Source: Oscillospiraceae bacterium
Lineage (GTDB): Bacteria; Bacillota; Clostridia; Oscillospirales; Oscillospiraceae
DNA length: 55,160 nucleotides
Assembly: GCA_017516925.1 (NCBI GenBank)
Contig: JAFXAQ010000016.1
Span: 1 to 55,160 of the forward strand
Direction: 5' to 3'
The notes below the pieces were generated by a model, which was given only the letters and a program-made list of their open reading frames with translations, did not search any database and was not told the DNA's origin. Below are positions 28,437 through 45,119 of this stretch, piece by piece; the first letter of the stretch is position 1; each line of letters opens with the position of its first letter. The position numbers were made by a program, and so were the translations under genes.

Positions 28437-29216
28437 CTAAATGTTCGTATATTCTCTCCACAAAAGGGCAGGACCCTCCAGATAGATTTTTTCCACCTCC
28501 GGAGCCTTGCCTGCAATCTCTATCTTCAGCAAACCGCCTTGGTTTTCTGCCTCCAGAACACCGCCGGGCAGCTGCCCTGTTGCCCACAGCACCACCGCAA
28601 CGCTGGCGCTGCCGGTACCGCAAGCCAGGGTGAAATCCTCCACCCCTCGCTCATAGGTCAAAACACGGATACGGTTTTCCCCCAGATGGCTGTAAAAATT
28701 CACATTTACCCCCTTGGGGAACACCGGGCTATGTCGCAGCTGCAGAAACCGCGCCCGCAATTCTTCCTTCTGGGAAAAGTCCAGTCCTTCCCGCTTTGTC
28801 ACACTATGGGGAACACCGGGCTTGCCCAGCTCCACATAAGCGGTTTCCCCCAGCCGGTGCAAATCCAGCACCTGTGGATTATTCAGCCGAACACGGTAGC
28901 GTTCACTGTCTATCCGCTGTCCGTAAACCAGACCCGCATCGGTTTGTACCGTCATTTTCTCTCCGGCAATGCCCCTGTCAAAGGCAAATTTGCACACGCA
29001 CCGGGCGCCGTTACCGCACATTTCACCCCGGGTACCGTCAGAATTATAAAAGTGCAGGCGAAAATCCGCAATTTCCGAGGTATCCACAGCCAAAAGCCCG
29101 TCCGCCTTCAACCGGGCGCACAGGCTTTTGGTCAATTCCGGAAAATCCAGAGCAAGCCCCCGGGCATCCAGCACAGCAAAGGTGTTTCCTGCACCGCTCA
29201 TATGCCAAATGTTCAA
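28437..29216 (-). CDS. dapF: Diaminopimelate epimerase
   Basis: A 259-residue PLP-independent epimerase turning LL- into meso-diaminopimelate for lysine and peptidoglycan. The two catalytic cysteines are in MCGNGARC (C67) and ACGTGSASV (near 205). It starts with TTG at 29216: AGGAGGG (29229-29223) is 6 nt upstream and the product begins MNIWHMSGAGNTF as the family expects. A 164-bp palindromic element separates it from dapB and ends at the base beside this ribosome binding site, so it may influence dapF translation. Length is slightly short of 270-280 residue homologues. Confidence 0.95.
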   Translation of the reverse strand: MNIWHMSGAGNTFAVLDARGLALDFPELTKSLCARLKADGLLAVDTSEIADFRLHFYNSDGTRGEMCGNGARCVCKFAFDRGIAGEKMTVQTDAGLVYGQRIDSERYRVRLNNPQVLDLHRLGETAYVELGKPGVPHSVTKREGLDFSQKEELRARFLQLRHSPVFPKGVNVNFYSHLGENRIRVLTYERGVEDFTLACGTGSASVAVVLWATGQLPGGVLEAENQGGLLKIEIAGKAPEVEKIYLEGPALLWREYTNI

Positions 29217-29229
29217 ATCTTGCCCTCCT

Positions 29230-29393
29230 GAGTAACCGATGATGACATCGGCAAGTAGTAGTGGCGAGAGGTTTTGTCACAAGTTAAAGTTTGGGAAACG
29301 GAGGAATACTTCGTGTATTTCCCGTTTTCCAAGCTGAAAAGTTGGGGCAAAATATCCGCCAATAACCGACGACGATTTCGTCATCGGTTACTC
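29230..29393. repeat. 164-bp full-length imperfect palindrome (MITE-like) in the dap operon
   Basis: Both ends read GAGTAACCGATGA inward (29230-29242 and, on the minus strand, 29393-29381). The two halves match along their whole length, by eye about 70 percent, centred at 29312 with a small hairpin AATAC-TTCGT-GTATT (29305-29319). Blocks such as TTTTG, TTGG and AAACGG recur symmetrically. It has no coding capacity. The dapB stop (29390-29388) lies in one end and the dapF ribosome binding site abuts the other. As RNA the whole element would fold as one long hairpin. Confidence 0.75.
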
Positions 29394-30107
29394 TAATAGC
29401 TGGTCCATATTGTAAAGGCCGGGCTTTTGTCCCACAATAAACCGGGCGGCATCCACAGCGCCCTGGGCCAGCATCTCACGGCTGCCTGCCTCGTGGCGCA
29501 GCGTCAGGGACTGATTGGCTGTGGTAATATGCACCTCGTGAACACCTACCACATTGCCCATCCGCAAGGAGGAAATTCCAACCTCACCGGGCTGGCGCTT
29601 GCCCTCTCCTGCCCGACCGCAGTGCTCATACAGCTCAGGTCTGGCAGATTTCACCGCCTGAAACAGCATTTTTGCCGTTCCGGAGGGTGCATCCACCTTC
29701 CGGTTATGATGAATTTCCACAATTTCGATATCCGCCTCCGGGAAGCAGGCTGCCGCCTGTTTTGCAAGTTTACATAACACCGCAATTCCCAGGCTCATAT
29801 TTCCGGACCAGAACACCGGAATTTCCTCGGCAGCATCATAAATCAGCTGCTTTTCCTCCCGGGTATGCCCGGTGGTGCCAATCACCGCGGCGCAGCCCAG
29901 CCCTCTGGCGCAGGCAAGCACATCGGTAACAGCGCTATGGTGAGAAAAATCAATCACCACGTCCGCCGATATCCGCCCAAGCTCCTGAAAGGTTCTGGCA
30001 ATGCCGTTTTCGCCGTCAATACTCACCCGGGCAACAATTTCCTCACCCAGAAGATTATCAATCAGCTTTCCCATGGCGCCATTGGCGCCCCACAGCAGGG
30101 CCCTCAT
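29388..30107 (-). CDS. dapB: 4-hydroxy-tetrahydrodipicolinate reductase
   Basis: A 239-residue reductase of the diaminopimelate pathway. The NAD(P)H-binding N-terminus MRALLWGANGAMGKL, the GTTGHT loop and the signature EIHHNRKVDAPSGTA (catalytic His and Lys) are intact. ATG 30107 shares one base with the dapA TGA (TGATG), indicating coupled translation; a GTG one codon upstream is the alternative. The stop codon is provided by the end of a palindromic repeat, directly after the expected C-terminus YNMDQLLE, so little or nothing seems lost. Confidence 0.94.
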   Translation of the reverse strand: MRALLWGANGAMGKLIDNLLGEEIVARVSIDGENGIARTFQELGRISADVVIDFSHHSAVTDVLACARGLGCAAVIGTTGHTREEKQLIYDAAEEIPVFWSGNMSLGIAVLCKLAKQAAACFPEADIEIVEIHHNRKVDAPSGTAKMLFQAVKSARPELYEHCGRAGEGKRQPGEVGISSLRMGNVVGVHEVHITTANQSLTLRHEAGSREMLAQGAVDAARFIVGQKPGLYNMDQLLE

Positions 30108-30991
30108 CACAGGACACCCAGCTTCTTCATCTGGGCAAAAAGGTTTGCCCTGGTTGCCGGCTCCATAGGTGTCAGGGGCATCCGCAGGTATTCCTCCCCA
30201 AAGCCCATTTCCGCCACCGCTGCCTTGGCAGGGATGGGGTTCACTTCACTGAACAGTGCGTCAATCAGCGGTAGCATCCGGCATTGCAGCTTGCCTGCCC
30301 CTGCCACGTCACCGGCAAAGAACTTGTCGGTCATCTCCACTGCCTGCTTCGGCGCCACATTGGACAGCACACTGATACAGCCCAGACCGCCCACGGACAT
30401 CATCGGCACCGTCAAAGCATCCTCGCCGGAATAAATCGCCAGCTTGTCTGCGCATCTGGAGGCGATTTCCACCACCTGCGCCATATTGCCGGAGGCTTCC
30501 TTCAAGCCGCAGATATTGGGGTGCTCTGCCAGCTTTTCCACGGTACCCGGCTGGAGATTACAGCCGGTACGGCTGGGAACATTATACATAATCAGGGGCT
30601 TTGTGGCAGCGTCCGCAATCATGGAAAAATGCTTGTACAAGCCGCCCTGGGTAGCTTTATTATAGTAGGGAGTTACTGCCAGAAGGGCATCTGCGCCGGC
30701 AGCGCAGGCATCCTTGGCAAAATCCAGAACGTGCTCGGTATTGTTGGTGCCTACACCGGCAATCACAGGCACTCTGCCATTTACCCGGTCAATGGTAAAG
30801 CGGATGACATCCTTTCTCTCCTGGGGAGAAAGGGTTGCGCTTTCGCCGGTGGTGCCCACCGCAACCAGTGCGTTAATTCCGTTTTCCAGCTGAAAATCAA
30901 TAAACCGGGCAAAGGTTTCATAGTCCACCCCGGTAGAAGTCATGGGGGTGACCATAGCCGTTGCCATACCCTTAAAAACAATTTCCTTCAT
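30107..30991 (-). CDS. dapA: 4-hydroxy-tetrahydrodipicolinate synthase
   Basis: A 294-residue class I aldolase condensing pyruvate and aspartate semialdehyde. GVGTTGESATL near residue 45, the Tyr of YNVPSRTGCNL near 135 and the Schiff-base Lys of CGLKEASGN near 163 are present. ATG 30991 has AAAAGGAGG upstream. First gene of dapA-dapB-dapF. The 205-bp divergent gap to the GH20-like gene shows a possible -10 TAGAAT (31030-31025) without a clear -35, and no recognisable lysine riboswitch. Confidence 0.95.
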   Translation of the reverse strand: MKEIVFKGMATAMVTPMTSTGVDYETFARFIDFQLENGINALVAVGTTGESATLSPQERKDVIRFTIDRVNGRVPVIAGVGTNNTEHVLDFAKDACAAGADALLAVTPYYNKATQGGLYKHFSMIADAATKPLIMYNVPSRTGCNLQPGTVEKLAEHPNICGLKEASGNMAQVVEIASRCADKLAIYSGEDALTVPMMSVGGLGCISVLSNVAPKQAVEMTDKFFAGDVAGAGKLQCRMLPLIDALFSEVNPIPAKAAVAEMGFGEEYLRMPLTPMEPATRANLFAQMKKLGVL

Positions 30992-36721: not shown

Positions 36722-38785
36722 TTAGTAGTGAATGTGTAACATATCAAACCGTTCCAGTTTGTCGATGGTGAAGTGTAACAATCTGCCTTCTTTTTGCCAG
36801 CGAACCTTTGCACCGCCGGTTGTGAACACTTCGGTGGGTTCTATGTCCAGCTTTAAAGAGAATGTTACATCGTAAAGCGGAACAAGCTTTTGCACATTTT
36901 GGCTGTTGAGAAGCGATACGGTATAGCAGCGTTTTTCTGCATTATGGCGCAATACGTGGGACAGATATTCCGTTTCCTCACACTGCATTGTCAAGCCGCC
37001 CACTTCCTCCAGCAAGGAAAGAATCCAGGTGTTAAAAACTTCAACATTGCAATCCATCTTGTTTTTCTCAATGGGGGCGCAGCTATATAAACAAGCGCCC
37101 TTTCCGTAGCGGTGATACACCACTGCGGGGATATTTGTTGCCTTGCCGGGCGGATTGCTGATGGCAGAGGAATATGTATGGGAATCCCGTGCATCAGAAA
37201 AGGGATAGGTCAGCGTTGCCAGCACCTGCGCAGCATCAGCGTTTTGCTTGACAGTTGGTACTGCAAAGGGCAGCATTTCCGGATATTCGGCAGTAAAGCC
37301 GGGGAACCAAGCTTCTCCCGCTTTGGTGGGCGCCAGATAAACCGGCTGCATATCCACAAAGGCATCGTATTCCACGCCCATCAACTCAGAGAGCATAAAG
37401 CGGTCTTTGGTTGTGCCGTCTGTGGACAAAGCGCTGGATGCGCCGCTGATATACAGACGGCCGCCTTGCGCCACATAGGCTGCAATTTTTTCACATTCCG
37501 ATTGGCTCATCCGGTACAGGTCAGAAACCACTACGACCTTATATTCAGACAACCGGTGGATATTTTTCTCGGTTAGAATATCGTAATCAATATGCGCCCG
37601 GGCGAAGTTGAAATTGATTTGCTCCAAATTCAGGGCAATATCCCGGTAATCGCCGATACGATGGCTGGGCTGACCTTCCGCTTCCCGTTGCGTGTAAGAA
37701 TCGAAATTCATATAGACAGCCACATCCCGAAGGATTTTGGCATCGTGGTCCACTGCCTTGTGGAACGGTGCCAACTCTTTTTTAATTTCACCCATAGTGT
37801 GATACAGCGCTTCGTGCAGCTTGCCGCTGGGGTCAATGGCATCAATAAACAGGAAGCTGCCACCGCAAAGCAGGGCGGTACAGGCTTGGTGTAAGAGCTC
37901 ATTTTTGCTCTTTAAGCCGGTATGATAAGACAGGTGCGGTGCCCGGGAGATCATATACTCGAAGGGCATATTCTCACTGAGGTTCGGCAAAATGCGGCAA
38001 ATTACCTCGGTTTTATGCCGGGATGCATAAAAATCACCGGACACATAATCCATCGTGCGGTAATAGTCATCGTGCAAGCCGTAATCCATCGCCCGGTTCC
38101 AGCCTGCGCATTGGAAGGAGACACTGATGCCGGGACGTGCTTTTTTTGCCGTTTCAGAAACCGCTTTTGCGTATTGGGTAACGCTGTCAAATTTGAAACG
38201 GATGTAATTGATAAAATTGGGGTCTGTCCAGTTGATTGTGTCCGGTATTTCCTGCCCTGTCTGGGCTTTGTACTTTTCCCGGCACCATTTGCAGGTACAG
38301 TCCGGCGCAAAAAAGCCAATCATATCCACCCAGAAGCCGTCAATGTCATAGGTGGACACCATTTCGTGAACCATAGCCAGAAAATAGTCCCGGAAGGGGC
38401 TGTTGGGACAGCAAGTGCCAAAACGGGTATGCTCGCCACGGACAAATCCGTTACTGGAGACAATCTGCCAGTCCGGATGACGCTTGGCAGCTTCGGTATT
38501 CCAGCTGTTAAGATAGCCGACCACACCAATACCGCGCCTGCGCAGCGCCTCCACAGTTTCCCCGAAAATATCTCTTTTTTCAGCAATGCTGTGGCGGTAC
38601 CCCACCTCAGTAGGATACAAGCACAAGCCCAAACAGTTGGACGCATAGACATAGGCCGTTTCTACCCCGGCAAGCGCCATACATTTGGCATACTGCTCCG
38701 GGTCAAACTGTTCCAGATAGCCCTCTCCGCTGGGAATATGCATATCCACAAGGTTGCGGAACATACTGCGCTTATACCAAGACAT
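36722..38785 (-). CDS. GHL6-like TIM-barrel hydrolase with beta-galactosidase-trimerisation-like domain
   Basis: A 687-residue protein. The N-terminal barrel (about 1-330) resembles hypothetical glycosyl hydrolase 6 and neighbouring alpha-amylase/alpha-fucosidase-like families: RNLVDMHIP near 8, GIGVVGYLNSWNTEAAKRHPDW near 90, and DIDGFWVDMIGFFAPDCTCKWC near 150, where WVD supplies a likely catalytic Asp and CTCKWC a small cysteine cluster. Residues about 380-560 (VVVSDLYRMSQSECEKIAAYV, GGRLYISG) look like the trimerisation domain of GH42 enzymes. ATG 38785 is chosen because GGGAGG is 8 nt upstream; other Met codons at 38791 and 38809 do not fit. It lies 20 nt after araC. The activity is unknown. 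Confidence 0.68.
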   Translation of the reverse strand: MSWYKRSMFRNLVDMHIPSGEGYLEQFDPEQYAKCMALAGVETAYVYASNCLGLCLYPTEVGYRHSIAEKRDIFGETVEALRRRGIGVVGYLNSWNTEAAKRHPDWQIVSSNGFVRGEHTRFGTCCPNSPFRDYFLAMVHEMVSTYDIDGFWVDMIGFFAPDCTCKWCREKYKAQTGQEIPDTINWTDPNFINYIRFKFDSVTQYAKAVSETAKKARPGISVSFQCAGWNRAMDYGLHDDYYRTMDYVSGDFYASRHKTEVICRILPNLSENMPFEYMISRAPHLSYHTGLKSKNELLHQACTALLCGGSFLFIDAIDPSGKLHEALYHTMGEIKKELAPFHKAVDHDAKILRDVAVYMNFDSYTQREAEGQPSHRIGDYRDIALNLEQINFNFARAHIDYDILTEKNIHRLSEYKVVVVSDLYRMSQSECEKIAAYVAQGGRLYISGASSALSTDGTTKDRFMLSELMGVEYDAFVDMQPVYLAPTKAGEAWFPGFTAEYPEMLPFAVPTVKQNADAAQVLATLTYPFSDARDSHTYSSAISNPPGKATNIPAVVYHRYGKGACLYSCAPIEKNKMDCNVEVFNTWILSLLEEVGGLTMQCEETEYLSHVLRHNAEKRCYTVSLLNSQNVQKLVPLYDVTFSLKLDIEPTEVFTTGGAKVRWQKEGRLLHFTIDKLERFDMLHIHY

Positions 38786-38805: not shown

Positions 38806-39663
38806 TCACATAAGCGTTTTCTTATATTCTGTCGGTGTCATATGCACATATTTTTTGAACACCTTCGTAAAGTACGTGGAGCTTTCGAAGCTTAATTGGG
38901 CAGCCACATCTGCTACCGTCATATTTCCCCGCAGCAATCTCTTCGCTTCGTGAATCTTCATCATCGTGTAATACTTCATAATGGGAAGACCGATGCTTTT
39001 CTTGAAAATGCCGTTTAGGAAGGTTTTGCTGTAATAAGTCTGCTGGCTGATTTCTTCCAGAGTAATATTATCATAAAGGTGCGCTTTGAGCAGATTGTAA
39101 ATATCATTGCTGAGGCTGTGCTCCAACTCCATACTGCTCATCATGAACACGATCTCACGATTTTTACTGACCCGGGCACGAATCAGGTGTATCAGGAGCT
39201 TCTCAAGCTCGTTGCATACCATTTGCTGTGCGCCAATGGTGGGCTTGGACAAAAGCTTCAGCTTTTTCTCAAAGGGGAAGACAAACGCGTTTTTCGCCTC
39301 CACAATAATTTGGGAAACAATGTGCTTTGCGTCCTGATTTAAGGTAATTTTTTCATCCAGAATAGATAAATACTCAGAACGTCCACAGAAGCAAATCACA
39401 AAAAGGGTTGCCGTTTGGTTGCTGGCGGTGCTGTAAGCGTGGGGCTGCAGGGGCGGAATGAGCAGAAAATCCCCTTGCTGAAGCTCGGTTATTTCCTCGT
39501 TCCTGTTGCAGAGGATTGTGCCGGAATCCACATATGCCAGCTCATAGAACTCGTGGGTTTCTTCCGGGTAGGAAAAACCTGATGATATATCCAGCATTTC
39601 AATGGTGACCAGGCTTTGCACAGTCACTTCTTTTTTGACTTGGTAGCTATGATATTCCCGCAT
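38806..39663 (-). CDS. AraC-family regulator of the glycosidase/peptidase locus
   Basis: A 285-residue regulator: cupin sensor half (about 20-100, with HEFYELAYVDSGTILCN and QGDFLLIPPLQPHAY) and C-terminal AraC DNA-binding domain (about 185-285, YSKTFLNGIFKKSIG and FESSTYFTKVFKKYVHMTPTEY cover the two HTH units). The start is ATG 39663, 4 nt after GGAGGTG; the longer frame to 39696 runs upstream of the ribosome binding site. First gene of its operon, and divergent, across 163 bp, from the M81-M24-ASRT operon. It is therefore the natural candidate to control both. The ligand is unknown, presumably a sugar. Confidence 0.88.
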   Translation of the reverse strand: MREYHSYQVKKEVTVQSLVTIEMLDISSGFSYPEETHEFYELAYVDSGTILCNRNEEITELQQGDFLLIPPLQPHAYSTASNQTATLFVICFCGRSEYLSILDEKITLNQDAKHIVSQIIVEAKNAFVFPFEKKLKLLSKPTIGAQQMVCNELEKLLIHLIRARVSKNREIVFMMSSMELEHSLSNDIYNLLKAHLYDNITLEEISQQTYYSKTFLNGIFKKSIGLPIMKYYTMMKIHEAKRLLRGNMTVADVAAQLSFESSTYFTKVFKKYVHMTPTEYKKTLM

Positions 39664-39826
39664 ACGGCACCTCCTTTTTTGCTTATCATAGCACAAAACA
39701 AAAAGAAAGAATAGGTAAAAAAGAACTATTATATGGTTTTATTTTTTATCATTTTCCCGTTGTTTTCTGCCTTGTTGCAACAGGAGATTATGTTATCATA
39801 AGATTGAAAGTATAAGGAGGTTTGCC
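39664..39826. promoter_or_regulatory. Divergent control region, araC versus M81 operon
   Basis: AT-rich 163-bp gap. On the plus strand TTGTTG (39772-39777) and TATCAT (39794-39799), 16 bp apart, could be the promoter of the M81 operon; TTGTTGCAACA (39772-39782) there includes the palindrome TGTTGCAACA. The minus-strand promoter is unclear (TATGAT, 39689-39684). Confidence 0.4.
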
Positions 39827-41221
39827 ATGAAAATTCTCGTTGCATCTTTTCAGTGTGAATCCAATACAAGGGCGCTTTTGCACCCGGGAAAAAGCGATTT
39901 TGAGTACTTTGCCGGAGAGGATATTTATAAGAAATTGGTGGTTAAGGATATCTTCACCGAAAACGGCTTTGCAGTCATACCTTCTATTTACGCAAACGCC
40001 CTGCCGTCGGCAACGGTGGAACAGGAGGTTTACGATTTTTACAAAACGCAAATTCTCGATACCGTTCGCGCCAATCCGGATGCGGCAGGCATTTATCTGT
40101 ATGTCCACGGCAGTATGGAAGTGGAGGGAATCGGCAGTGGTGAGCTGCAGCTGGTCAAAGAAATCCGGCAGATTGTCAGCCGGGATTGCCTGATTGCCCT
40201 TACAATGGACTTGCATGCCAACATCACAGAGGAGCTGGGGCAGTATGTGGACATTGTTTGCGGCTATAAAACAGCGCCGCATACTGACCAGGAGGAAAGT
40301 CAGCGCCGGGCAGCGGGTGCGTTGGCATATTGCCTGAAAAACCGTATCAAGCCGTACACCTTTGTGCAGAAAATCCCGATGCTGGTCAAGGGGGATACTA
40401 TGCTGACACAATATGAACCCCTGCGTTCCCTCGAGGCAGAAACGGTTCAGCTGGAGCAGCAGGCGGATATCTTTGGCGCCAATCTGTTTTTTGGCCATTG
40501 CTGGATTGATGCGCCCAACACCAGCGCTTCTGCCGTAGTCAGCGCCGCAAGCCCTGCTGCAGCAAAGCAGTGGGCGCAGACCCTTGCCAACAAGCTTTGG
40601 TCCACCCGAAAGGAATATCAATTCCGGATTGAGGCAGAGCAGCCGGAGGAATGTGTCCGGCGGGCTTTGGCAGGTAAGGAAAAACGCATTTTCATCACAG
40701 ACAGCGGCGACAACACCACCGCCGGTGCTGAGGGAACAACCCAGGAGCTGTTAAAGCTTTTCCTGCAGGCTGACCCGGAAAAGAAAACCTGCGTAGCCGG
40801 CATCACCGCTTACGAAACAGTAAATTCCCTCTGGGAGCAACCGGACGGCGCAGCTGTCACAGTGCCCGGACTGGAACGCAAAGGTGTCATAAAGACCCAC
40901 GGAGAGATTTTAGGCTGGGCAAAGGAAATCATAGGCAGATGCCTGACGGTCTCCTTTGGCAACGTGGATGCTATCTTTACCGAGAAACGAAGCGGCTTTA
41001 TTGAAAAAGGAAACTTTGATAAGGCGAATGTGGACTTGCTTGACTATGAAATTGTGGTAGTCAAGTTAGGTTATCTGTTTGAAGAACTTAAACCTTATGC
41101 AGACCGGGAGCTGTTTGCCCTGACCGATGGCGCCAGCTGTGTGGAATTGTCCCGGTTAAACCTGAAAAACATTGTACGTCCAATGTATCCCCTTGAGGAC
41201 TTTGCTTGGCGTGCAGAATAA
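39827..41221 (+). CDS. M81 (MlrC-like) metallopeptidase
   Basis: A 464-residue protein of peptidase family M81, named after MlrC, which cleaves linearised microcystin. Conserved features are the N-terminal FQCESNT (Glu10), MDLHANITEEL with D128 and H130, and GYKTAPHTDQEES with a further His/Asp, which together form the expected metal site. The C-terminal domain carries SGDNTTAGAEG in place of the common DNPGGG-like loop. No signal peptide. Natural substrates of most M81 proteins are unknown; small peptides or amides are likely. AAGGAGG precedes the ATG. It starts an operon with the M24 (21 nt) and ASRT genes. Confidence 0.85.
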   Translation: MKILVASFQCESNTRALLHPGKSDFEYFAGEDIYKKLVVKDIFTENGFAVIPSIYANALPSATVEQEVYDFYKTQILDTVRANPDAAGIYLYVHGSMEVEGIGSGELQLVKEIRQIVSRDCLIALTMDLHANITEELGQYVDIVCGYKTAPHTDQEESQRRAAGALAYCLKNRIKPYTFVQKIPMLVKGDTMLTQYEPLRSLEAETVQLEQQADIFGANLFFGHCWIDAPNTSASAVVSAASPAAAKQWAQTLANKLWSTRKEYQFRIEAEQPEECVRRALAGKEKRIFITDSGDNTTAGAEGTTQELLKLFLQADPEKKTCVAGITAYETVNSLWEQPDGAAVTVPGLERKGVIKTHGEILGWAKEIIGRCLTVSFGNVDAIFTEKRSGFIEKGNFDKANVDLLDYEIVVVKLGYLFEELKPYADRELFALTDGASCVELSRLNLKNIVRPMYPLEDFAWRAE

Positions 41222-41242
41222 AATAAGAAGGAGTATATCATT

Positions 41243-42421
41243 ATGGCTTACTACAACGAACAGGAAACCAAAAACAGAATTCAGAAGGTCGTAAACCTGC
41301 TGAATGAAAAGGATGCAGACATTGCCGTTATCTATTTTGACGAACTAAACATTGCCAACGGCTGGTATTTGACCGGTTGGTGCGGTCAGTTTGAAAAAGG
41401 TGCGGTTCTGGTGGGCAGAGATGGCACCACCATGCTGCTGGGCGGTCCGGAAAGCGAGCCCTTTGCCAAGCAGTCCTCTGCCATCAGCGATACTCGCTGT
41501 TTTAAAGTATTTATGGTTCCGGACGAAGAATATCCCCTGGCTACCATTATCGGTTTTCCGGAGCTGTTTGCAGAGCTGAACCGGAAGTTCCCGGTAAAAA
41601 AGGTTGCCCTGGTTGGCACTACCGATATGCCCTATGCGGTACATCAGGACCTGGTTGCCGGCTTCAGCGGCTGTGAAATCATCGACCTGACCGAGGAGTA
41701 TTTGCAGTTCCGCTATGTCAAGAGTGACTGGGAAGTGGAGCAGGCAAGAAAGGCAACGATGCTCTGCTACGATGCCTATAAGGCTATGGCAGAAAAGGTC
41801 AAGGCTGGCGCAAAGGAATATGAAGTAGCTGCCGCCGGTGAGGCTGTTTGCCGCGCCAACGGCGCCAACAGCTTTGCATATCAGACCATTGTTGGCAGCG
41901 GCATTCGCTCCAATGCGGTTGTTCCCACGGCTACCGATAAGGTGATGGAAAACGGCGAAATGGTTATGCTGGGTATTGCGCCCCGTATCAACGGTTATGC
42001 CGGCACCTTCGGTCACACCGTCCCTGTCAGCGGCGAGTACACACCGGAGCAGAAGAAGTGCCTGACCGATATGATTGAAGTGATGCAGGTAGTCAAGGGA
42101 ATGCTGAAAATCGGCAATACCGGCAGACAAATCGACGCTGAGGGTCGAAAGCTGTATGACAAGGGCGGTTACTTAAAATATATTGTTTGCCCCTTTGCCC
42201 ATACCATGGGTCTTATGGAAGCAGAAGCACCCTTCTTCGGTCCCAACAGTGATGACGTGCTGGAAAAGAATATGATTGTCAATGTGGACGTCTCCTTCTT
42301 CGGTCACCCCACCCTGAACGGTCTGCGTGTGGAAACCTGCTACGTAATCACCGAAAATGGCGCAGAGCCTCTATGTCCTGCGTTCGAAAAAGAATTGTTT
42401 GACTATGTACAAAACCACTAA
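41243..42421 (+). CDS. Creatinase/prolidase-fold M24 protein with degenerate metal site
   Basis: A 392-residue M24-family protein: N-terminal creatinase domain (about 1-150) and C-terminal pita-bread domain (about 165-392). Of the five usual metal ligands, His320 (FAHTMGL), a Glu in EAEAPFF and Glu364 (RVETCYV) remain, but the two Asp positions are Gly244 (MLGIAP) and Thr255 (GYAGTFGHT). The catalytic His of the PHA motif appears as Thr229 (VVPTATD). Creatinase is a metal-independent M24 relative, so a non-peptidase hydrolase acting on an amidino or amide bond is as likely as a dead peptidase. It is 21 nt after the M81 gene and 13 nt before the ASRT gene. Confidence 0.82.
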   Translation: MAYYNEQETKNRIQKVVNLLNEKDADIAVIYFDELNIANGWYLTGWCGQFEKGAVLVGRDGTTMLLGGPESEPFAKQSSAISDTRCFKVFMVPDEEYPLATIIGFPELFAELNRKFPVKKVALVGTTDMPYAVHQDLVAGFSGCEIIDLTEEYLQFRYVKSDWEVEQARKATMLCYDAYKAMAEKVKAGAKEYEVAAAGEAVCRANGANSFAYQTIVGSGIRSNAVVPTATDKVMENGEMVMLGIAPRINGYAGTFGHTVPVSGEYTPEQKKCLTDMIEVMQVVKGMLKIGNTGRQIDAEGRKLYDKGGYLKYIVCPFAHTMGLMEAEAPFFGPNSDDVLEKNMIVNVDVSFFGHPTLNGLRVETCYVITENGAEPLCPAFEKELFDYVQNH

Positions 42422-42434
42422 GGAGGAAGAGAAT

Positions 42435-42797
42435 ATGTACGGTAAAAAGAATTGGGTGTTTTGTGACGGCGACCTGCCTCCTGCAGGCAACAATCCGGAT
42501 TTTCCCGGTCACGAAGCGTTAATGATTACCAACGTTTCTGATGTGGATGCCAACATCCGTATCAAAATTTTATTTGTGGACAAGCCTCCCTACGACAAAA
42601 TTACTATGGAGCTGAAGGCAGAGCGTACCAGCTGTCTGCGGCTGGATCACCCCATCGGCAACGAGGGGTACCAAATTCCCTTCGGTCAGTATGCCATTCA
42701 CGTTATTTCTGACGTTCCGGTGGTGGCTTGTTTCGGCAGACTGGATGTGCGCCAGAGCAACATGGCATATTACAGCCTTGCCGGCTACGGTTTTTAA
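42435..42797 (+). CDS. ASRT-family (sensory rhodopsin transducer-like) small-molecule-binding protein
   Basis: A 120-residue single-domain protein. WVFCDGDLPP at the N-terminus, GHEALMITNVSDVDANIRIKILF, the turn ERTSCLRLDHP and AIHVISDVPVVACFGRLDVRQ match the Anabaena sensory rhodopsin transducer family. That fold is a small tetrameric beta-sandwich; comparative work has proposed that the superfamily binds small molecules, probably sugars, and most members are in organisms without rhodopsin. No opsin gene is here. AGGAGG (42421-42426), overlapping the M24 stop codon, precedes ATG 42435. Third gene of the M81 operon, so a carrier, sensor or auxiliary subunit for its substrate is the likely role. 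Confidence 0.8.
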   Translation: MYGKKNWVFCDGDLPPAGNNPDFPGHEALMITNVSDVDANIRIKILFVDKPPYDKITMELKAERTSCLRLDHPIGNEGYQIPFGQYAIHVISDVPVVACFGRLDVRQSNMAYYSLAGYGF

Positions 42798-43472: not shown

Positions 43473-43516
43473 AAGGGTTTTTTTTCGTTTTTTCAGGCAA
43501 AACGCAGAAAACCCTT
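43473..43516 (-). terminator. Probable terminator after the spoVB-like gene
   Basis: On the minus strand AAGGGTTTT pairs with AAAACCCTT, with an inner CGTTTT/AAAACG pairing, starting within the spoVB-like stop codon. It is imperfect and has no long T run directly behind it, but it separates the seven-gene unit from the hup promoter. Confidence 0.45.
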
Positions 43517-45119
43517 ACAATTTTAACAGTTTTGCAAGCTTGTCGCCCTTGGGAAGCAGCTGGCAATCCTCCCGGGTAATCACCTTAAACAGCACCACTG
43601 CGACGCAATAAACTGCCGCGCCTGCCCCAATGGGCAACCCGCAAAGCAGCACCCGGCTGCCCTCTGCCCCGAGCAGCGCAAGGACCCCCCGGTGCACGCT
43701 ATAAACCGCCAGTCCCATAATGCCCGCAGGCAAAACCGGGCGCAAAAAATTCCTGAGAAGGGCAGGCTTTTGGGGCACCACCCGGGAAATCGCCACCAGG
43801 TTCATTGCGGCGATGGCAGTATAGCCCAGCACCGAGCCCAAGGGAGCGCCTATAATCCCCAGCTGAGGATTTCCGGTGAGCAAGTACACCACACCCAGCT
43901 TCACCACACCGGCAGCCAGCATATTCACAACCGGAATGTAGGCATAGCCGTGGGCCTGCATCAGGGCATTGGTATACTGGATAATCGCATACAAGAAAAC
44001 GCATACGGATAAAATTCGCATCAAATTGGTGGCAAGCACCAGCTTTTCGCCGGTGTAGCCCCCAAGCAGGGACATAATGGGCTCTGCCAGCAGTCCCAAA
44101 CCCACAGCACAGGGCAAACTGATAAGTCCTGCAATCCGGGCGGCAGACTCCTCTGTTTCCCGGACACCGTCATTCTTTTGTAAGGTCAGCTGGTTGGTGA
44201 TGGCAGGAATGACGCTGATGGCGATAGGCACAATGAAGGAACAGGGCATATTGTAAATGGTCATAGTCATAGAGTAAATGCCCTTCATGGTGTCTGCCGT
44301 GTCCTGCGAAAAGCCGCAGGCCGTCAGCAGCTGCCCCATATAAAGCTTCTGCTCCAACACCGTTAAAAGCTGCAAACCCGCAGAGCCCACCGTAATGGGC
44401 ACCGCTATGGCAAGCAGGCTTTTTGCCGTTGCCCCAAAGGAACGGGGCGTATCCTGCCCCAAGGGCAGCTCCCGGTAAGCCGGGCGGAATTTGCTATACA
44501 AAAATACCGCACTGAGCAAGCAGCTGCAGGTCACGCCTAAAATAGCGCCGGCCGCTGCCACTGGGACGCTTTGGTACCGTCCCATAAGAAACCACGCAAG
44601 ACCCAGTCCTATCAAAAGCTTGATGCCGGCTTCCAGCATCTGACTGGAGGAGGTGGGTCGCATATTGCCGTGACCCTGAAAAAAGCCCCGGAAGGTAGAG
44701 ACCAAGCCCATAAACAACGCACAGGGTCCCAGCGCTGCAATGGCATATGCCGCATTGGGCTGCTCCAGATTTTCTGCCAGCCAGGTACTGCACAGCACCA
44801 TAAACAAGCTGCTGACAAGACCCAGACCCAGGAAAATAGCTCTGGCGGTTTTATATACCCGGCGTACCTGATTGTAGTTGCCCAGAGCGTTTGCCTGACT
44901 GATCATCCGGCTCATTGCCACGGGCAAGCCAGCTGTGGAAACCAAAAGCAGCACGGAGTATACATCATAGGCGGTCATAAAATAGCCGTAGCCCTGGTCG
45001 CCGATGATGCCCTTTAGGGGGATTTTATAAAAAGCGCCGATGAGCTTCACCACGGCAGTTGCCATTGCCAGCAGGGCTGCGCCGTGGAGAAAGGTTTGCT
45101 TTTTGGTGTTATCGGACAT
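43515..45119 (-). CDS. SpoVB/MurJ-type polysaccharide flippase
   Basis: A 534-residue membrane protein with about fourteen hydrophobic segments, of the MOP superfamily polysaccharide-transport group. The N-terminus GAALLAMATAVVKLIGAFYKIPLKGIIG and AGLPVAMSRMISQANALGN near 63 are characteristic of SpoVB/YabM/YkvU. These flip lipid-linked precursors for spore cortex or wall. In B. subtilis yabM and rqcP (yabO) flank mazG; here hup-rqcP follow but mazG is absent. It is the last gene of the long recJ unit, 3 nt after the amidohydrolase. Confidence 0.85.
   Translation of the reverse strand: MSDNTKKQTFLHGAALLAMATAVVKLIGAFYKIPLKGIIGDQGYGYFMTAYDVYSVLLLVSTAGLPVAMSRMISQANALGNYNQVRRVYKTARAIFLGLGLVSSLFMVLCSTWLAENLEQPNAAYAIAALGPCALFMGLVSTFRGFFQGHGNMRPTSSSQMLEAGIKLLIGLGLAWFLMGRYQSVPVAAAGAILGVTCSCLLSAVFLYSKFRPAYRELPLGQDTPRSFGATAKSLLAIAVPITVGSAGLQLLTVLEQKLYMGQLLTACGFSQDTADTMKGIYSMTMTIYNMPCSFIVPIAISVIPAITNQLTLQKNDGVRETEESAARIAGLISLPCAVGLGLLAEPIMSLLGGYTGEKLVLATNLMRILSVCVFLYAIIQYTNALMQAHGYAYIPVVNMLAAGVVKLGVVYLLTGNPQLGIIGAPLGSVLGYTAIAAMNLVAISRVVPQKPALLRNFLRPVLPAGIMGLAVYSVHRGVLALLGAEGSRVLLCGLPIGAGAAVYCVAVVLFKVITREDCQLLPKGDKLAKLLKL

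Follow-up and report, generated by a model that had tools for sequence, protein, structure and literature searches.

What does an operon do that joins an M81-family metallohydrolase, a creatinase-fold protein of the M24 family with an incomplete metal site, and a small protein of the ASRT family? Such an operon lies in a stretch of 55,160 nucleotides (nt) from an Oscillospiraceae bacterium (assembly GCA_017516925.1, contig JAFXAQ010000016.1), hereafter the window. Comparison with related loci identifies it as one form of a conserved accessory operon of Clostridia, consisting of a rebuilt M24/creatinase-fold protein, a distinct ASRT subfamily, and an exchangeable metal-dependent hydrolase. The operon and its boundaries in the window are as follows.

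39827..41221, + strand: M81 (MlrC-like) metallohydrolase, 464 amino acids (aa); PF07364 (8e-73) and PF07171 (7.7e-22)
41243..42421, + strand: M24-like creatinase-fold protein, type A, 392 aa; PF00557 (2.1e-32) and PF01321 (4.2e-07)
42435..42797, + strand: ASRT-family protein of the GHE subfamily, signature GHEALMITN, 120 aa; PF07100
42811..42846, + strand: intrinsic-terminator-like hairpin of 16 pairs at the operon end; also called on the - strand, with 18 pairs
38806..39663, - strand: AraC-family regulator with a cupin-like N-terminal domain, divergent from the operon; PF12833 and PF02311
39664..39826, no strand: divergent intergenic region shared by the AraC and M81 genes, 163 nt, sequence read

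The three genes form a single + strand operon with intergenic gaps of 21 and 13 nt, and the open reading frame (ORF) coordinates agree with this spacing as described in the initial annotation. That annotation had also placed a strong terminator behind the operon and a divergent AraC gene in front of it, and both are borne out, by the 16-pair hairpin and by the regulator gene 163 nt away on the opposite strand. The hairpin reads as bidirectional, since it is called on both strands; terminator-like sites in the region number 8 against a shuffle mean of 8.5, which is no excess, and the stem length of the operon-end site is the sole feature that stands out. No sigma-70-like site is found within 39664..39826 in the promoter listing of the region. 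The ASRT start given in the ORF list is 42357, but a start at 42435, behind a ribosome-binding-site-like stretch, is better placed. The small protein, whose family assignment had been staked beforehand on a PF07100 profile search, matches that profile over residues 3–118 of 120 (1.7e-25; 89.8 bits, cut-off 25), and the M24-like protein carries a creatinase-type N-terminal domain besides its M24 domain (Pfam). The genome of the window (1.65 Mb, 84% complete) contains one ASRT gene and two M24 matches, the second of which keeps the canonical metal ligands. The opsin profile PF01036 has no match in this 84% complete genome, but the same search also matched none of 14 control genomes, so the missing match is no sign that an opsin is absent.

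Conservation of the gene neighborhood was assessed in two overlapping genome sets, whose counts are not additive. In the first set, 84,980 species, each represented by a single genome, were scanned with the ASRT protein alone as query, leaving M81 and M24 unselected; the scan relies on short peptide patterns of the query, so it recovers close relatives only. It yielded 55 loci (L002–L056) with 56 ASRT genes, many of them from metagenome-assembled genomes of ruminant guts. An M24-like gene lies within 3 kb on the same strand for 50 of the 56 ASRT genes, directly upstream within 250 nt in 46 cases, and an M81 gene is found within the same distance and on the same strand for 38/56; the full order M81, M24, ASRT is seen for 35/56. 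The genes are thus neighbors in related genomes as well, a conserved unit. Among 38 type-A genes (M81-M24-ASRT) with 3 kb of upstream sequence, M81 is present for 36 and missing in L033 and L040. Linkage to an AraC regulator, whose conservation the initial annotation had proposed to check, is common but not universal: the divergent gene occurs in 23/33 type-A loci with M81 and 4.2 kb of upstream sequence.

The second set derives from a class sample of 391 genomes, 71 of which contain PF07100. It comprises 46 regions of weaker-scoring intact ASRT hits (Pfam <118 bits) and 14 other regions; the weaker-scoring regions do not include the window itself, the copy in genome G069, or the partial G345 hit. 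The 46 regions contain 47 ASRT genes, including a classical one (L114) already among the strong hits, and an M24-like gene lies within 3 kb of 38/47, corresponding to 38/46 GHE-type genes. Hydrolases near the 47 ASRT genes are of the creatininase family in 20 cases, the PTE family in 7, and the M81 family in 6. An alignment search with the M24-like protein (E 1e-60) matched 42 of the 391 class genomes, and a hand comparison of the lists shows that every genome with an intact weaker-scoring (GHE-type) ASRT, 31 with the window's included, is among these 42. Chance adjacency of ASRT and M24-like genes is ruled out by these linkage counts (50/56 genes; 31/31 genomes). In a phylum-wide draw of 299 genomes, the M24-like family was found in two besides the window's own, both outside the class; because only these two others appeared, the family is mainly a trait of the class. 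No gene fusions between the core families were found among the ORFs searched. In G069 (C86:17998-18321), an ASRT copy contains four in-frame stops, in a genome with no M24-like match at E 1e-60.

The pair of M24-like and ASRT genes is the most constant part of the module, whereas the hydrolase is exchangeable between three families: M81, PTE, and creatininase. In addition to type A, we distinguish type B (PTE-M24-ASRT) and type C (M24-ASRT-creatininase). M81 accompanies 37/44 type-A M24 genes in the first set and 5/7 in the second, PTE accompanies 6/6 and 3/6 type-B M24 genes, respectively, and creatininase accompanies 20/25 type-C M24 genes. The initial view of M81 as a defining partner does not hold, as PTE-family or creatininase-family hydrolases take its place; since the partners exchange, restriction of the module to M81 is likewise ruled out. 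Gene orders are permuted in L023, L042, L096, L100, and L113 with linkage unbroken, and in 16/25 type-C loci the starts assigned here give an overlap of 8 or 11 nt between the M24 and ASRT frames. Across the module, these two frames often overlap or nearly touch. In one locus (L036:3657-10363) a type-B and a type-A module adjoin, and the type-A M24 gene is split over two frames, probably because it is broken or because of a sequencing error.

The hydrolases themselves are related to characterized enzymes at the family level. The M81 zinc-ligand positions E11, D128, H130, and H152 are invariant in 39/39 rows (38 distinct), where the last three align with chain 7ylq and E11 is paired with MlrC E39 by motif only; because these positions are kept, the M81 partner is probably active, as judged from its sequence. 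It scores 67.7 bits against NF041767 (MlrC microcystinase), far below the cut-off of 999. For the creatininase-type partner, the one protein searched matches PF02633 (95.6 vs. 31.3 bits) but falls short of creatininase proper, TIGR04448 (55.6 vs. 235).

The M24-like protein had been described as metal-site-deficient, and this is accurate for two of the five ligands, with a further change from Glu to Asp349, but not in the sense of an inert protein. In place of the ligands D, D, H, E, and E, the window's protein has G244, T255, H320, D349, and E364, and thus departs from the M24 ligand set. The active site was compared across 106 distinct M24-like rows (110 in all), of which 105 were readable, and 15 canonical M24 rows. 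All 15 canonical rows have D, D, H, E, E, while both metal-ligand Asp residues are replaced in 105/105 M24-like rows. The latter retain His320, Glu328, Arg362, and Glu364 without exception and carry a further residue, Glu326, in 105/105 rows, compared to 0/15 canonical rows. Position 349 is Asp in 104 M24-like rows and Cys in one, but Glu in 15/15 canonical rows, and the canonical M24 His position is occupied by Val, Met, Ile, or Leu. The same residue pairing was obtained from PDB alignments and from a profile-profile alignment of types A and C (probability 99.9). Because part of the active site is kept and a new invariant Glu is added, deficiency here does not mean inertness.

Both catalytic-type His residues and both metal-ligand Asp residues are lost in 84 ASRT-linked copies of over 370 aa. 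By comparison, in seven genomes with ASRT-linked copies, the 12 ASRT-unlinked M24 copies that were read (of 28 matches) keep both Asp residues; one M24 copy without either (L172) comes from a short locus with no ASRT. A single origin of the rebuilt site is likely from the M24 tree, which parts canonical from deficient rows with support 93/79, though the tree uniting the deficient proteins carries warnings of long branches meeting. A further M24-like clade with Gln at the first Asp position (L199, L208–L210, L212, and L214) lies beside PTE-family genes; several of its loci encode a small protein family, c12, and none has an ASRT gene in the stretch.

The ASRT partner is equally distinctive. The ligand signature SHE..C reads GHE without the Cys in 91/91 M24-linked ASRT rows (87 distinct), and the window's GHEALMITN accordingly departs from the SHEshChhN signature of the ASRT-like family. 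Among the 61 ASRT rows not linked to M24, 46 are of the S..C type and 15 of the G type. The 46 reduce to 38 distinct loci after removal of repeats, a set that does not include 12 further strong PF07100 hits of the class sample, and an M24 profile search in these 38 found none (30 with flanks of at most 1.5 kb, shorter at some contig ends, and 8 with about 5–6 kb where the contig allows). ASRT proteins in the four plasmid regions read are also of the SHE..C type, without M24. By its signature, the GHE-type ASRT is a separate subfamily; the ASRT tree leaves many forks unresolved for want of alignment columns. A plasmid search with the window's M24-like protein gave nothing at E 1e-30, and a type-C M24-like query matched 232 plasmid records weakly, all below 60% identity; among the 40 of these listed, the named records bear the names Xaa-Pro peptidase, aminopeptidase P, or M24. 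One plasmid (L217, CP115910.1) carries a different M24 gene with SIS-domain, PfkB-kinase, and polyamine-type ABC genes.

The M24-like protein is also the most conserved protein of the operon. Mean identities across 24 type-A loci are 85% for M24-like, 81% for ASRT, 68% for M81, and 48% for AraC. Ratios of nonsynonymous to synonymous substitution rates (dN/dS) between the window and three relatives are 0.009–0.029 for M24-like, 0.067–0.074 for M81, and 0.025–0.072 for ASRT, values that are rough because dS is near saturation; in a fourth relative M24 and M81 are saturated. Broken copies occur in L036, L041, and L107, but a plain pseudogene is rejected for most M24-like copies, whose frames are open and which represent the slowest-changing gene of the operon.

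Within the genus, M81 of the window's type is absent from the 36 other genomes, and PF07100 occurs once among them, in the type-B locus L143, whereas the flanking membrane-protein gene at 43515-45119 (MurJ/flippase-like by eye only) is present in 33/36. Guanine-plus-cytosine (GC) content drops from about 53–56% to 46–52% across 31–43 kb of the window. Together with the GHL6, MFS, and GH20-like genes among the following neighbors, the operon looks like an acquired island.

36722..38785, - strand: GHL6-type glycoside-hydrolase-like gene, PF14871 (6.3e-25); downstream of AraC, likewise in the closest relative, L002
34805..36703, - strand: 632-aa protein (GHx) with no Pfam or NCBIfam match; has relatives in L002 (there, too, beside GHL6 and AraC) and in L003
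33452..34693, + strand: MFS transporter, PF07690; module neighbor, downstream of ASRT in L002
31197..33416, + strand: GH20-like glycoside hydrolase, PF02838 (1.6e-14) and PF00728 (5.5e-07); edge of the lower-GC stretch

A row of dapF-, dapB-, and dapA-like genes (28437-30991, - strand) adjoins this stretch. Sugar-related genes surround the module, with the GH20-like and GHL6 genes of the window and GH20 among flanks elsewhere. A GH20b-like gene lies between M81 and M24 in L134, with a relative in the same place in L135, and 85 flanking proteins include GH20 in 4 cases, Gfo/Idh in 3, and DUF4838 in 3, the rest being mixed. A recurrent protein of about 710 aa beside the module (GHc4; L004:10428-12569), with no Pfam match and no convincing PDB match, is possibly a new glycoside-hydrolase-like family. 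The neighbors lean toward glycan use, although as a guide to the substrate the flanking glycosidases are only suggestive.

Taken together, we propose a rebuilt creatinase-fold enzyme with an ASRT partner subunit in a sugar-linked catabolic route, a reading drawn from sequence comparison that we regard as evenly poised between right and wrong. In this scheme, the substrate would be a small molecule, probably derived from a sugar, in which the hydrolase opens a ring or cleaves an amide or lactone. Next, the M24-like protein would act on the product through His320, Glu326, Glu328, Asp349, Arg362, and Glu364, with one metal or none. Creatinase, which lacks a dinuclear metal site, is a metal-free precedent within the M24 fold. 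ASRT, which by analogy with TM1070 would be a tetramer, might attach to the M24-like protein as the subunit responsible for holding or sensing the small molecule, and the AraC protein could induce the operon on the substrate. A bolder version, which we advance tentatively and would sooner doubt than assume, envisages a new two-subunit enzyme composed of two parts: a creatinase-fold protein that has lost the dinuclear site and gained Glu326 close to the former ligand histidine, and a dedicated ASRT-fold ligand-binding subunit. Ring-opening hydrolases from three unrelated families, each able to stand in for the others, would serve it, and the degradation pathway, as yet undescribed, would have spread among Clostridia by gene transfer.

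Several observations weigh against the proposed enzyme and its sugar-linked role, besides the saturation of dS and the long-branch warnings given above. Six of the 56 ASRT genes of the first set have no M24-like gene within 3 kb (L049, at a contig end, and L020, L044, L050, L051, and L052), as do 8/46 GHE-type genes of the class sample; contig ends cut 4 of these 14. In L052, whose assembly bears the name Amazonia massiliensis and is not a metagenome-assembled genome, so that an isolate may exist, some 4.6 kb separate the ASRT and M24-like genes, and no M81 was found. Conversely, 11 of the 42 M24-like genomes have no weaker-scoring (GHE-type) ASRT, and 20/20 further M24-like loci of the same superclade, chosen away from any known ASRT, have no ASRT in the stretches read, some of which are short or near contig ends. 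ASRT is not strictly needed, given these loci and genomes without it. PTE or creatininase is found in 10 of the 20 loci, and since the M24-hydrolase pair also stands alone, ASRT looks like an added partner, which may or may not present or sense the substrate as initially suggested. The flanking genes are diverse, with no strongly recurring single sugar enzyme, and the sugar link draws on these neighbors and on a proposal published in 2009 (PMC2739507; de Souza, Iyer, and Aravind).

Other explanations were weighed against the same data. In one, the M24-like protein would have no catalytic activity and serve as a scaffold or binding protein, forming with ASRT a sensor of small molecules by which the adjacent hydrolase is regulated. 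Pseudoenzymes of the M24 fold exist, such as Spt16 and Ebp1, and the loss of four active-site residues in the 84 ASRT-linked copies is what such a role would allow. A scaffold, however, need not keep His320, Glu326, Glu328, Arg362, and Glu364, which are invariant across clades at about 21–26% identity, and we consider this explanation unlikely, though not negligible. It is quite unlikely that ASRT is instead a cytoplasmic ligand sensor tuning the enzymes or AraC from outside any enzyme complex. The frequent linkage of AraC fits that role, as does the sugar sensing by stand-alone ASRT proteins that PMC2739507 proposes from operon context and the TM1070 pocket; yet with the pocket signature altered in every M24-linked row the ligand may differ, and ASRT distances track those of M24 (r 0.86) more than those of AraC (r 0.56), though all are linked genes.

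The names of the protein families suggest two further pathways. As both M81 and M24 are named as peptidase families, the operon might degrade ordinary peptides or glycopeptides with two peptidases and ASRT as a passenger. The M24-like protein lacks the canonical peptidase ligands, the partners switch to non-peptidase families, and ASRT linkage is frequent and persists after gene reordering, all of which make this very unlikely. A creatinine- or creatine-like pathway, in which a creatininase-family enzyme is followed by creatinase, would match the pairing of a PF02633 protein with an M24/creatinase-fold protein in type-C loci. It appears extremely improbable given the low score for true creatininase, the use of M81 or PTE elsewhere, and the Val, Met, Ile, or Leu at the canonical M24 His position.

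The role of stand-alone ASRT proteins in genomes without rhodopsin was posed as an open question in 2009 (PMC2739507). Among the matches listed in open-licence PubMed Central literature there is no answer to it, no other literature on ASRT, and no description of an ASRT/M24-like/hydrolase module, which may have been described elsewhere. An ASRT subfamily with a nearly constant partner gene and an altered ligand signature makes that role testable. The M24-like protein, in turn, represents a conserved enzyme candidate filed as a peptidase by family names even though it lacks peptidase ligands, and the module points to an undescribed breakdown pathway in Clostridia, many of them from animal guts.

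Compared with known systems, the module resembles the ASRT-like operons of PMC2739507, described from genomes that lack rhodopsin, in placing a solo intracellular ASRT next to carbohydrate-related genes. The contexts given there for solo ASRT, in the main text, are isomerase/aldolase/kinase, a monosaccharide ABC transporter, amylase, and pyruvate decarboxylase/oxidase; unlike in the module here, M24, M81, PTE, and creatininase are not named, the only mention of an inactive zincin-like metallopeptidase concerns the secreted actinobacterial family, and the SHEshChhN signature described for the family is not kept in GHE-type ASRT. The window's ASRT matches TM1070 of Thermotoga maritima (1nc7) and the Anabaena ASRT (2ii7), a partner in cyanobacterial light signalling, over nearly its full length (E 2.6e-09 and 6.2e-14, respectively), but has Met for the ligand-signature Cys and different partner genes. 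The M24-like protein belongs by sequence to the same two-domain family as M24 prolidases and aminopeptidase P (1pv9, 2zsg), from which it differs in having Glu326 and in the loss of both catalytic-type His residues and of two metal ligands out of five; creatinase (1chm) is a weak sequence match (3.4e-07). MlrC microcystinase C (7ylq) and 3iuu belong to the M81 family and share the conserved zinc ligands of the window's M81, the ligands being those given in PMC9982164. Finally, the creatininase-type partner matches IolN 3-dehydro-scyllo-inosose hydrolase (NF041098; 51.1 vs. 245 bits) and the PTE-type partner matches phospho-furanose lactonase (NF045706; 68.1 vs. 630 bits), in both cases as kin rather than members, and these two enzymes, judged from their NCBIfam names, act on sugar-derived rings.

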